Positions 7,219 through 17,300 of a stretch of 33,421 nucleotides of DNA are shown piece after piece. Both the position numbers and the translations under genes were made by a program. The stretch's first letter is position 1, and each line of letters starts with the position of its first letter. The stretch is taken from NCBI GenBank assembly GCA_009776995.1, contig WRMR01000002.1, forward strand, positions 1-33,421, in the 5' to 3' direction. The stretch is from Planctomycetaceae bacterium (GTDB taxonomy: Bacteria > Planctomycetota > Planctomycetia > Pirellulales > Thermoguttaceae). The notes under the pieces are model-generated. The model saw nothing but the letters and a program-made list of their open reading frames with translations. It searched no databases and was not told the DNA's origin.

Positions 7219-8796
7219 TCAGAGCAACTGCCGGGCTTTGATTTCGAGGTATTTGTTGATCAACGGGGCGGTCATGTCTTCGGGGAACGTGTCGAGCGTC
7301 AGCGTTCCCTGGTGCTTGAGGTCGTTGATGACCTTGTGACGCCAGTTCAAAATATCAGCGGCGGCACCGGCACGCCAAAATTCGTGGGCTTCCGACTTCA
7401 GGCTTCGGACTTCAGCAGAGAGTGCCAAAGCGGAATCTGAAGCCTGAAACCTGAAGCCTGAAGCCTCCCGCGTCTTGAAAAAATTTGTGAGCGGGTCGAA
7501 AATCTCGTGGTCGCGCAAGAACACCCCCAGTGGAAGATGACGCCCCGTGATGTTGGTCAGGTGATTCTGGATGGCCTTTGCGTTGACCAGGTCGGCAACG
7601 TTGGTCACGAGAACGACCAGCGAACGCTTGCGGCACCGTGAGGCCAGATACGCGAAGGCCTCATCGTAGCGGGACTCAACCGGTTCGGGGAACAGGTTGA
7701 AAAAGCCGTGCAACAGCCGGCTCATCTGCCGCTGTCCCGAAGTCGGCGGGATGTAATTGATGATGCGATTGGAGAAACAGAGCATCCCCACCGCGTCGAA
7801 TCGCCGGATGGCCACGTAACTGAGCATCAAGGCCGCATTGAGCGAATGATCGAGCAGCGTCAGGCCGTTGCGTGACAGGTTGGTCATCATCCGGCCGCAA
7901 TCGACCAGGAACATGATGCGCTGGCTGCGCGACATTTGAAAATCCTTGACCGTCAGTTTCTGCCGCCGGGCGGTCGCCGACCAGTCCATGAACTTGTATT
8001 GATCGTCAAGCTGGTAATCGCGGAGCCGCTCGAAATCGTTGTCATGCCCGACGCGCCGGGCCACCCGCACGCCGAGTTGATGCAAGCGGTCGGTGCGGGC
8101 GAGCAGGTCGTATTCGGTCATTTGCCGCAGGTTCGGGTAAACGCAGATTTCGCTCTCGCAGGGAATCGTGATGTCGCGATGCCAAAATCCGAGCAGGCTG
8201 CGGACACGTAACGCAACTTCTTCAAGGCGGAACAGCCCGCGTTCTTTCGGTTTGATTTCATATTCGAATGTTTCGGCGGAACGTCCCGGCAATGTACGTT
8301 CGGAAAACGCCTCCGTATCGGGGCAAAGCGTCGGCGGCACATCATCCTTGACCGTCAGACGAAATTTCCGCCGGGTGCGGTTTTCGATGCGCAACCGGAT
8401 CAAATGCGGTCGTGCGAGCGAGGCAATGCGGTCCACATCGCGCCGCACACGAAACGGTTGCCCAATGACGGGCAGCGTCGCGAAACCATCGAACAGCAAA
8501 ATCAGTGCGATGGCCGCATCGGCAGTCAACAAGACGTACCAAAAATCGTCGTAAGCATAAAGGAGCGTTGAGAAAAATGTTGCCGCAAGAATCGTCACGA
8601 ACAGCAACCTGGTCGGGTAAACGCGCCGTAACAGTGCCGGCAAAAGAAAAACGAGTAATGCCGCCGGAAAAATCAGCATCACACGGCGGTCAAACACCTG
8701 CCCGATTTCATCTGCGGCTTGGGCGAAAAGCAATACGTTTGAAAAAATATCTCTCATGACGCTCATTCTTCTCTTGTTGTCACCCCATCGCTTCAT
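7219..8796 (-). CDS. DUF58 domain membrane protein
   Basis: Up to 525 residues. Two hydrophobic segments near the N-terminus (RVMLIFPAALLVFLLPALL; LLFVTILAATFFSTLLYA) plus a third (ADAAIALILLF) are followed by a beta-rich region and the DUF58 hallmark RLRDYQLDDQYKFMDWSATA. A vWA-like IMFLVDCGRMM follows. DUF58 proteins are usually encoded with MoxR ATPases and vWA proteins; no MoxR gene is adjacent here. The start is ambiguous: 8796 overlaps the upstream ORF by 17 bp, while in-frame ATGs at 8766 and 8757 avoid overlap and have AAGAGAAG-type purine stretches. Residues ~443-470 (SGFRFQASDSA...EVRSLKSEA) come from an in-frame repeat insertion (see 7387-7467) and are not part of the domain. Confidence 0.82.
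   Translation of the reverse strand: MKRWGDNKRRMSVMRDIFSNVLLFAQAADEIGQVFDRRVMLIFPAALLVFLLPALLRRVYPTRLLFVTILAATFFSTLLYAYDDFWYVLLTADAAIALILLFDGFATLPVIGQPFRVRRDVDRIASLARPHLIRLRIENRTRRKFRLTVKDDVPPTLCPDTEAFSERTLPGRSAETFEYEIKPKERGLFRLEEVALRVRSLLGFWHRDITIPCESEICVYPNLRQMTEYDLLARTDRLHQLGVRVARRVGHDNDFERLRDYQLDDQYKFMDWSATARRQKLTVKDFQMSRSQRIMFLVDCGRMMTNLSRNGLTLLDHSLNAALMLSYVAIRRFDAVGMLCFSNRIINYIPPTSGQRQMSRLLHGFFNLFPEPVESRYDEAFAYLASRCRKRSLVVLVTNVADLVNAKAIQNHLTNITGRHLPLGVFLRDHEIFDPLTNFFKTREASGFRFQASDSALALSAEVRSLKSEAHEFWRAGAAADILNWRHKVINDLKHQGTLTLDTFPEDMTAPLINKYLEIKARQLL
7387..7467 (-). repeat. Palindromic repeat inserted in frame inside the DUF58 gene
   Basis: The minus strand reads GAGGCTTCAGGCTTCAGG, then TTTCAGGCTTCAGA, a short centre, then CTGAAGTCCGAAGCCTGAAG and TCCGAAGCC. 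The two halves are imperfect inverted repeats of GGCTTC(A/G)G(G/A)(T/C)TTC units. No frame is broken; the element encodes SGFRFQ...AEVRSLKSEA. The same element, in the same orientation and frame relative to its host gene, is in hrpA at 16153-16229. Confidence 0.85.
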
Positions 8797-14301: not shown

Positions 14302-17300
14302 ATGCCCGACTTCTCAAAATTGAAAAAGGAAATTTCGCACGTCATGCTGGCCGACCGTTTTCGGCTGGGCAACCGGTTGCGGCAGTTGGAACGGAAATCG
14401 CTCGACGGGTGGGGCGGTGGGCGTGACTTATCCGCGCGGCGGGAGACGCTCGAAAACGACATTGCCGTTTCGTACCAGAAAGTCGAACAACGGCGGAAAC
14501 ATTGGCCGAAGCTCGCGTTTGACGAAACCTTGCCGGTCAATGAGCGTCGTGCGGAAATTGCGGAAACGCTCAAGACCAACCAGGTCGTCGTGATTTGCGG
14601 CGAGACCGGTTCGGGCAAGTCAACGCAATTGCCGAAAATCTGCCTCGACATCGGGTGCGGCTTGTATGGCATGATCGGTCACACGCAACCGCGACGCATT
14701 GCCGCGCGTTCGGTTGCTGCGCGCATCGCCGAAGAACTCGGCACGCCGCTTGGAAAGCATGTCGGTTACAAGGTTCGATTCTCCGATCAAACCTCGTCCG
14801 AAACGCTCGTCAAACTGATGACCGACGGCATTTTGCTCGCCGAATCGCAAAACGACAAGTTTTTCGAGCAATACGACACGATCATTATTGACGAAGCCCA
14901 TGAACGCTCGCTGAACATTGACTTTTTACTCGGCATGATGCGTCGTCTTGTCAAGCAACGTCGTGACCTGAAACTGATCATCACCTCGGCCACCATTGAT
15001 GCCGCACGCTTTGCCGAACATTTTAGTATGGGCAACAAAAAGGTGCCGGTCATTGAAGTGTCCGGACGCACTTACCCGATTGAAATCCGCTATCGTCCGA
15101 TGCTCACGGAGGATATTGACGAGACGGAGAGTGACGATGCAGACGAATCGGACCCGTTGCGGGCAGTGCTGAAAGCGGTGGACGAACTTGCGGCGGAAGG
15201 CCCCGGTGACATGCTCGTGTTTATGCCGACCGAGCGCGACATTCTCGAAACGGCGAAACTGCTCCGTTCGCACACATTGCCTGGTGACCCCTTGCGCAAG
15301 ACGGAAATTTTGCCGCTTTATGCGCGATTGCCCGTCGAGCAGCAACAGCGCATTTTCAAAACCTCGGCTCACCGCCGGATTGTCATTGCGACCAACGTTG
15401 CGGAATCGTCGCTCACTGTGCCGGGCATCCGCTTCGTTATTGACACCGGCACGGCACGCATGAGCCGCTACTCGGCGCGGTCCCGCACGCAACGACTGCC
15501 GATTGAAGCCGTCTCACAAGCGTCCGCAGACCAGCGTGCCGGACGTTGCGGACGTGTCGGACCGGGCGTTTGTGTGCGGCTGTATTCGGAATCCGATTAC
15601 AACAAGCGCGACCGTTACACGACACCGGAAATTCAGCGGACCAACCTTGCGTCGGTCATTTTGCAAACGAAATCACTCCAGTTGGGTGCCGTCGAAAAGT
15701 TCCCGTTCATCGATCCGCCACGTTCGGCGGCAATCACAGACGGTTACAAAACGCTGTTCGAAATTGGAGCCATCGACAACGAGAAAAACCTCACGTCCAT
15801 TGGTCGGCAGTTGGCGCAACTGCCGGTTGACCCGCGTATTGGACGCATGATTCTTGCGGCGAACGAAAACGGTGCATTGCGTGAGATGCTGATTATCGCG
15901 GCGGCACTCGAAATCCAGGACCCGCGCGAACGACCACACGAATTGCAGGAAAAAGCGGACGCGGCCCATCAGAAATTTCTTGATCCGCAGTCTGATTTTC
16001 TCGCTTACCTCAAGATGTGGGAGTTTTACCACAACCTGAAAGACAAGATTTCGCAAAACCAGCTTCGCAAGGCACGTGCGCAGAATTTTCTTTCGTACAA
16101 CCGGATGCGCGAGTGGTCGGATATTCATTTGCAGCTCAAGAGGCTTCTGGGTGAGACTTCAGGTTTCAGGCTTCAGAATGAAGTATCAAATGACAAACCT
16201 GAAGTCCGAAGTCCGAAGTCCGAAGCCTTATATGACAACTTGCATTGTGCGATTCTTACAGGGATGTTGTCGGGCATTGCGCAGCGGGATCAGAAATATG
16301 AGTACAACGTGACCGGCGGCGGCAAGTTTTTTCTCTGGCCGGGCAGCGGGGTTGCCAAGAGAGTGGCGAGTGGCGAGGGGCTAGTGGCTAGTGATTGCCA
16401 AAATGTGACTGGCCGCTCACCACTCGCCACTCGCCACCTAAATTGGATCGTTGCAACAGAACGTGTCGAGACGACACGGAAGTATTTGCGGACGGTCGCG
16501 CGTATTGAGACTGATTGGGTTGAGCCGTTGGCCGGGCACCTGATCAACAAGAGTTACAACGAGCCGCATTGGTCGCCGGAAACGGGGTATGTCAACGCTT
16601 ACGAAAAAGTGTCGCTGTTCGGACTGACGCTCGTGCCGAGACGCCGTGTCAATTACGGCACCGTCAATCCGCAGGAAGCCCGCGAAATTTTTATCAACTG
16701 CGCGTTGGTGGATGGCGAGCTTGACACGAAAGTCGAGTTTTTTCGGCATAATCAGGCCATTCGTGAAGAGGCGATTGCATTGCAGGCAAAGTTGCGACGG
16801 CACGATTTCCTGCTCGGTACCCGGGCGATTTACGATTTTTACCAAAGCCGTATTCCCGACACGGTGTATGACAGGCCGACGCTCGAACGCTGGCACAAAA
16901 CGCTTGACAACAACGGACGGCGCAACCTTTTGATGACGCTCGGCGATGTCGCACGGGAGGAAATCGACGAAGCAACGGCGGCACAGTTTCCCGATGCGCT
17001 GGCGACACTGCACGGCACCGAAGCCCGTATTGAATACACGTTCAAACCCGGCGAAGCGGACGACGGTCTCACTGTGATTGTGCCGATTGAAAGTTTGCGC
17101 GAAGTTGAGCCGTCGCGACTCGGCTGGCTTGTTCCGGGGTTGCTTGAGCAAAAAGTCGAGGCGATGTTACGGGCATTGCCCAAAACGTTACGACGACCGT
17201 TGGTGCCGATTCCCGACACGACCAAAGCGATTGTCTCGCAACTGCGATTCGGCGAAGGCAGTATCGAGGAAACAGTTGCGCGGCACGTCAGTCGCCTTGC

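Follow-up and report, generated by a model that had tools for sequence, protein, structure and literature searches.

Two genes of the window, by which we mean the whole 33,421-nucleotide stretch of planctomycete DNA analysed here, each contain a short palindrome with arms of tandem CTTCRGR heptamers (Table 1). One gene encodes a DUF58-domain protein and the other an HrpA-type DEAH RNA helicase, whose product is matched by Escherichia coli HrpA structures in the PDB with an E value of 1e-299. The window is contig 2 of a metagenome-assembled genome (MAG) of 599 contigs and 4.66 Mb that is 81% complete with 5% contamination. Among named genomes it is closest to the Planctomycetaceae MAGs of isolates Nc350_bin95 and Gsp477_bin66, whose names might, at a guess, indicate a termite-gut origin.

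Table 1 Features of the two host genes and of the palindromes within them (window coordinates)
Feature	Position	Strand	Basis
Gene for DUF58-domain protein, 525 aa	7219–8796	−	Pfam PF01882, E 2e-25
CTTCRGR heptamer palindrome, copy 1, within the DUF58 gene	7387–7467	−	Sequence; HMM 67.5 bits
Copy 1 ascending arm, heptamers CTTCMGR	7387–7415	+ (plus-strand reading)	Sequence
In-frame CGA codon (DUF58 frame) where the heptamer consensus is the stop TGA	7405–7407	−	Sequence, CDS frame
Copy 1 loop, 19 bp, with core AAAGCGGAA	7417–7435	+	Loop comparison
Copy 1 descending arm, TCTGAAGCCTGAAACCTGAAGCCTGAAGCCT	7436–7466	+	Sequence, HMM
hrpA, gene for HrpA-type DEAH RNA helicase, 1350 aa	14302–18354	+	Pfam PF11898, PF00271, PF07717, PF21010
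CTTCRGR heptamer palindrome, copy 2, within hrpA	16153–16229	+	Sequence; HMM 55.7 bits
Copy 2 ascending arm	16154–16177	+	Sequence
Copy 2 loop, 20 bp	16178–16197	+	Loop comparison
Copy 2 descending arm	16198–16228	+	Sequence
In-frame CGA codon where the heptamer consensus is TGA	16207–16209	+	Sequence
Additional palindrome within hrpA, with heptamers of the GAGTGGC/TAGTGGC family, lying in frame in the variable linker that follows	16359–16441	+	

An earlier note on this DNA had placed palindromic repeats at 7387–7467 and 16153–16229, and both are present there. Their arms are GGCTTCCGACTTCAGGCTTCGGACTTCAG and TCTGAAGCCTGAAACCTGAAGCCTGAAGCCT in copy 1, and AGACTTCAGGTTTCAGGCTTCAGA and CCTGAAGTCCGAAGTCCGAAGTCCGAAGCCT in copy 2. 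The encoded peptides, EASGFRFQASDSALALSAEVRSLKSEA in the DUF58 protein (minus-strand reading) and ETSGFRLQNEVSNDKPEVRSPKSEAL in HrpA, are also as that note had read them. Both copies have a predicted hairpin (z −4.5 on the coding strand for copy 1 and z −3.8 for copy 2), and the loop core AAAGCGGAA of copy 1 recurs in some other copies of the family. Copy 1 is missing from the DUF58 orthologues of the same-genus genomes G001 and G002, and copy 2 from four relatives (L031, L032, L033 and L034) and from E. coli HrpA. A low-confidence AlphaFold fragment (pLDDT 44.6) hints that the element in HrpA may lie between two helices. The second palindrome in hrpA (the SGEGLVASDCQNVTGRSPLATRHL region), which the earlier note did not mention, is one of the few genic copies of its family; its RNA fold is predicted at −55.9 kcal/mol with z −8.1. 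Separately, positions 1–108 and 2215–2322 of the window form a 108-nucleotide direct repeat of 96% identity, one copy of which is at the contig end.

The CTTCRGR unit is about 77–82 bp long and consists of three to four YTTCRGR heptamers, a loop and a complementary arm of YCYGAAR heptamers. An HMM of the unit, run over 1.60 Mb of the window's own genome, a fragmented MAG, gave 52 whole or partial matches; some of this sequence had been chosen because it matches the window copy, and contigs C1–C95 were chosen by size, except for the window itself and a few of C83–C95. Contigs chosen by size and totalling 1.24 Mb contain 86 period-7 tandem runs compared with 1 in shuffled sequence, and other tandem periods number about 10 or fewer, with the exception of 14 and 21, which are multiples of 7. 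With these runs and the roughly 50 HMM matches, the repeat is beyond chance. The genome has several heptamer families, GCRRART, [GT]AGTGGC and CTTCRGR among them; inverted pairs are frequent, and some of the repeats are compound arrangements built around a common core. Two near-alike compound repeats made of GCAGAGT-type heptamer arrays (L069, G000:C29, 13696–13922, and L084, G000:C44, 3515–3735) have the core AATCAGAGCCGCGACGGTNACGGAGCGGTCGAAGC in common, and a shorter relative lies at C10:12316–12459.

The same-genus relatives yielded none of these heptamer families. No period-7 runs occur in 256 kb from three same-genus genomes, and GCRRART triples number 384 in the window's own genome versus 0 in three congeners. 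Of 392 genomes from the phylum, 10 have CTTCRGR in tandem and two have the palindromic pattern, namely the window's own genome and that of a distant planctomycete (G078), in which all three inspected copies are outside open frames. A check for viral carriage turned up a single viral contig with the palindromic pattern, and there an ORF ends at the repeat. The CTTCRGR palindromes are a multi-copy family restricted to one lineage.

Genes around the copies were called from hexamer bias and an open frame in the flanks alone, a procedure that can register elements interrupted by an in-frame stop. Of the 42 copies that reach 25 bits, 25 lie in genes with the frame open, none lies in a gene with a stop, 16 are non-genic and 1 is at a contig edge; this is the tally of genic and intergenic copies that the earlier note had proposed. 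Within the contigs chosen by size (C1–C95), 14 copies are genic and 8 are not. In an independent period-7 search, genes hold 10 of 15 CTTCRGR loci, 7 of the 60 GCAGAGT loci and 1 of the 13 GAGTGGC loci, and the genic share of random 78-bp segments is 58%, so CTTCRGR is the only one of the three main families that is not depleted in genes.

The earlier note had been struck by the same orientation, frame and peptide in the two window copies. Identical orientation is partly trivial for the arms of a palindrome, and genic copies lie both ways (10 sense and 15 antisense by best HMM strand). The shared peptide is real, and it is largely forced by the 7-bp unit: because 7 is coprime to 3, each heptamer arm yields a single cyclic heptapeptide whichever frame is read, LQASGFR from the CTTCAGG arm and PEVRSPK or PEARSLK from the descending arm, with PEVRSLK also arising from the latter when CGA replaces TGA. 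The common frame is not trivial. Relative to the descending arm it is shared by 15 of the 19 complete genic copies, in all 15 of which the in-frame triplet belongs to the second heptamer counted from the loop.

No frame of the ascending arm contains a stop, and the TGA in the descending arm (CYGAAG) is therefore the only possible block to translation; arising from CCTGAAG, it recurs once per 21 bp in every frame unless the base is C. In the genic copies the in-frame YGA is TGA in 0 cases and CGA in 23, whereas out-of-frame YGA triplets of the same arm are TGA in 31 and CGA in 37 (Fisher p=1.8e-5, an approximate value because heptamers within one copy are not independent). On the opposite arm the corresponding position, TTC[A/G]G, is A in 74 cases and G in 7. 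Frames set by hand give like counts (0/22 in frame, 28/36 out of frame and 94/14 on the opposite arm). On the sense descending arm C is enriched even out of frame, whereas on the opposite arm it is nearly absent. Pooled over the unconstrained sites, the fraction of C in genic copies (44/149) is near that in non-genic copies (22/82). For these two reasons, sorting of pre-existing asymmetric copies by orientation and frame would fit the data better than mutation after insertion.

All 19 complete genic copies have the common frame open on their sense strand, and 13 of them have a second frame open as well. These 13 use the common frame in 10 cases, the other open frame in 2 and the third in 1. 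Stop avoidance therefore explains much of the frame bias, although perhaps not all of it. A stricter form of protein-coding palindrome would have an open frame in fixed register on one strand, inherited by the family; in genes that register would be inserted or kept beyond what stop avoidance requires, and genic life would be the main mode. We judge this stricter form to be quite unlikely.

Hosts assigned at equivalog level are Dxr, Dxs, Der, PurL and PyrG. Further hosts are a ParB-family protein, a YoaA/DinG-type helicase, a class II tRNA synthetase, an RNB exoribonuclease (its copy lies at a contig edge), an ABC-F-type ATPase, an SNF2-type helicase and an exosortase, besides HrpA and DUF58. 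Orthologues were compared in three same-genus and three same-family genomes, none of which contains the element peptide. In the alignments the element sits in a variable linker from which most of the ancestral linker is gone, in agreement with the variable loop that the earlier note had recognized in hrpA. A full element codes for 23–29 residues, and the net gain between conserved anchors relative to the same-family outgroups is about +6 in Dxr, +8 to +21 in Dxs, +18 in Der, +18 to +23 in the DinG-like protein, +10 in GT4 and +17 in PyrG. The ParB and glycerate-kinase-like genes say little, because in the outgroups, too, these linkers are long and variable. Simple insertion of a whole unit without loss is rejected, as the expected gain of 23 to 29 residues is missing in most genes. 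In the PyrG with the element (L057, G000:C17, 1757–1827), the otherwise conserved GGTM before RLG is gone. Congener G001 has a second pyrG-like gene of lower identity.

Such linkers are marked as recurrent landing sites for repeats by the PurL of a genome from another genus (G007, L230, 1845–1942), in which the same linker holds a REP-like palindrome in frame, together with in-frame AGTGGCC and AATCCCY heptamers. In the SNF2-type helicase of a congener (L160, G001:C372), the linker that holds the element here contains a 7-residue (21-bp) repeat, APSTPQA.

We consider it likely that the two window repeats belong to a dispersed palindromic family whose copies have increased in number within one planctomycete lineage. 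Copies lie both between and within genes, and those within genes occupy linkers of conserved proteins; there they replace part of the ancestral linker and are presumably translated as part of the host protein. Two properties probably underlie this tolerance, namely that a 7-bp unit, coprime to 3, gives the same cyclic heptapeptide in every frame, and that genic copies carry CGA wherever the hazard triplet falls in frame. The peptide is probably translated and tolerated, not useful. Insertion and loss of linker residues may have come in one event or in successive events. The earlier note had suggested a mobile, protein-tolerated repeat family. Its picture of a tolerated, lineage-specific, multi-copy family holds, with copies both between genes and, in frame, inside many unrelated ones; mobility as such is only a candidate trait, with no target-site duplication or associated transposase seen, and the insertion is not a clean one, the linker being partly displaced. 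The copies appear to have spread by a copy-and-insert process and not by separate local growth.

A narrower form of this explanation, possible but doubtful, is a non-autonomous element, of the MITE or REPIN type, that a transposase encoded elsewhere in this genome mobilizes in trans. The element is indeed short, dispersed and palindromic, and the genome has five matches to Y1 transposase genes of the REP-associated type. However, the immediate flanks of these genes carry CGCCCC...GGGGCG palindromes and not CTTCAGG, arms of which occur farther out at two of the loci (C75 and C31), and same-genus genomes have Y1 genes but no CTTCAGG elements. Three of the Y1 loci (L172, L177 and L181 of G000) are flanked by short palindromes of their own, CGCCCC...GGGGCG in two, and the Y1 genes with these palindromes likely constitute a separate REP system. 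Inspection of the listed flanks by eye revealed no evident target-site duplication, and a terminal tag was not seen either. Mobilization by a RAYT thus finds no support in the Y1 flanks.

Returning to the dispersed family as a whole, it has to be weighed against local growth of heptamers by polymerase slippage, made palindromic through template switching and involving no mobile unit. This process accords with a genome that holds several unrelated heptamer families and strongly prefers period 7, with the over-representation of heptamers in bacteria, for which slippage has been proposed (PMC4692102, PMC4679880), and with the inverted heptamer pairs common in Xanthomonas (PMC4692102). But it does not readily produce one heptamer, one arm size and a 19–20-bp loop (16 of 25 complete copies) at dozens of unrelated sites, and some loop sequence is common to copies: AAGCGG is present in 7 of 25 loops, whereas the most shared 6-mer of shuffled loops is present in 3 on average and 6 at most. 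We therefore hold local growth to be unlikely, while the sharing among loops is limited enough that common descent of all copies is not proven.

Two further readings give the hairpin a role of its own. A functional RNA or DNA hairpin, presumably regulatory, could lie in genes by chance, as heptanucleotide elements in and between genes of Geobacter metallireducens have been proposed to be regulatory RNAs (PMC2700814). The window has no Rfam match, the hosts are unrelated in function and pairing is not kept within copies. At variable positions the two arms of one element have a complementarity of 0.502, compared with 0.583 for swapped arms, and 1,997 of 2,000 arm shuffles are at or above the observed value. 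Preserved hairpin pairing is rejected by this reversed outcome, which arises because the coding filter acts on one arm, and we regard a regulatory hairpin as very unlikely. It is still less credible, to the point of being highly improbable, that the element is spliced from the mRNA or skipped by ribosomes. The predicted hairpins are strong, but full in-frame stop avoidance and a kept frame are unnecessary for an insert that is removed, and the lower complementarity of an element's own arms is the opposite of selection for pairing. That the peptide is an ancestral conserved motif, as its recurrence across many proteins might suggest, has a negligible chance of being correct and is rejected by the orthologue comparison: no orthologue at 50–80% identity has it in any of the genes compared, it is missing as well from E. 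coli HrpA, E. coli Dxr and solved CTP synthases, and the host proteins have unrelated folds. The earlier note had named the peptide's presence in orthologues as the outcome that would overturn its reading, and the comparison did not give that outcome.

The best-known protein-coding palindromes are those of Rickettsia, a lineage with an obligate intracellular life. The Rickettsia palindromic elements (RPE; Ogata et al. 2000, 2002; reviewed in PMC10969869) are short palindromes of about 150 bp dispersed in and between genes, in frame in unrelated genes (metabolic genes in Rickettsia and 25 genic copies here), with a recurrent peptide in both systems. The present family also has the RPE-type traits of absence from host-gene orthologues and of non-genic copies (16). 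It differs, as far as the RPE are described in that review, in its size of about 77–82 bp, roughly half, in arms made of tandem heptamers, in a peptide that follows from the 7-bp unit in any frame and in its planctomycete host. The parallel with Rickettsia drawn in the earlier note stands as the closest comparison for the way of living in genes, and membership in the Rickettsia families is unsupported by size and build. The open-access literature searched yielded no description of in-frame heptamer palindromes or of planctomycete ones, consistent with the suggestion that the family was undescribed for this lineage, and the heptamer sequences were not found as literals in papers.

Another related system is that of the heptanucleotide elements of G. 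metallireducens, with GGACCGG four times in 49 copies and MTYCTGA five times at 16 sites, the latter class depicted as a hairpin (PMC2700814). Like CTTCRGR they occur both within and between genes, but the heptamers are different and a regulatory role is proposed, and accommodation in reading frames appears not to be the topic of that account. Heptameric simple sequence repeats of Xanthomonas and Nostoc (PMC4692102), Beggiatoaceae (TAACTGA; PMC4679880) and Chloroflexus ((GATAGRA)n; PMC6749651) likewise have period 7, many arrays per genome and lineage-specific sequences, with inverted pairs in Xanthomonas. The Xanthomonas repeats are depleted in coding sequence, as are the other families of this genome (7/60 and 1/13), whereas the genic frequency of CTTCRGR is about random (10/15 versus 58%). 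REP and REPIN sequences with Y1 (RAYT) transposases are also short dispersed palindromes in inverted pairs, but the copies inspected here have no GTAG/CGTC end tag and the palindromes flanking Y1 differ. Inverted repeats in coding sequence are known from Nematomorpha mitochondria, where, as reported, they are longer and do not form a dispersed heptamer family (PMC6649704). Set beside these systems, the planctomycete elements are an independent case of protein-coding palindromes, with an arithmetic reason for their tolerance: a unit coprime with 3, a single hazard triplet and a visible sorting of TGA to CGA. They offer a clean natural experiment on repeat DNA entering essential proteins, in which, given strains, an insertion filter or selection for the peptide can be tested by sequence alone.
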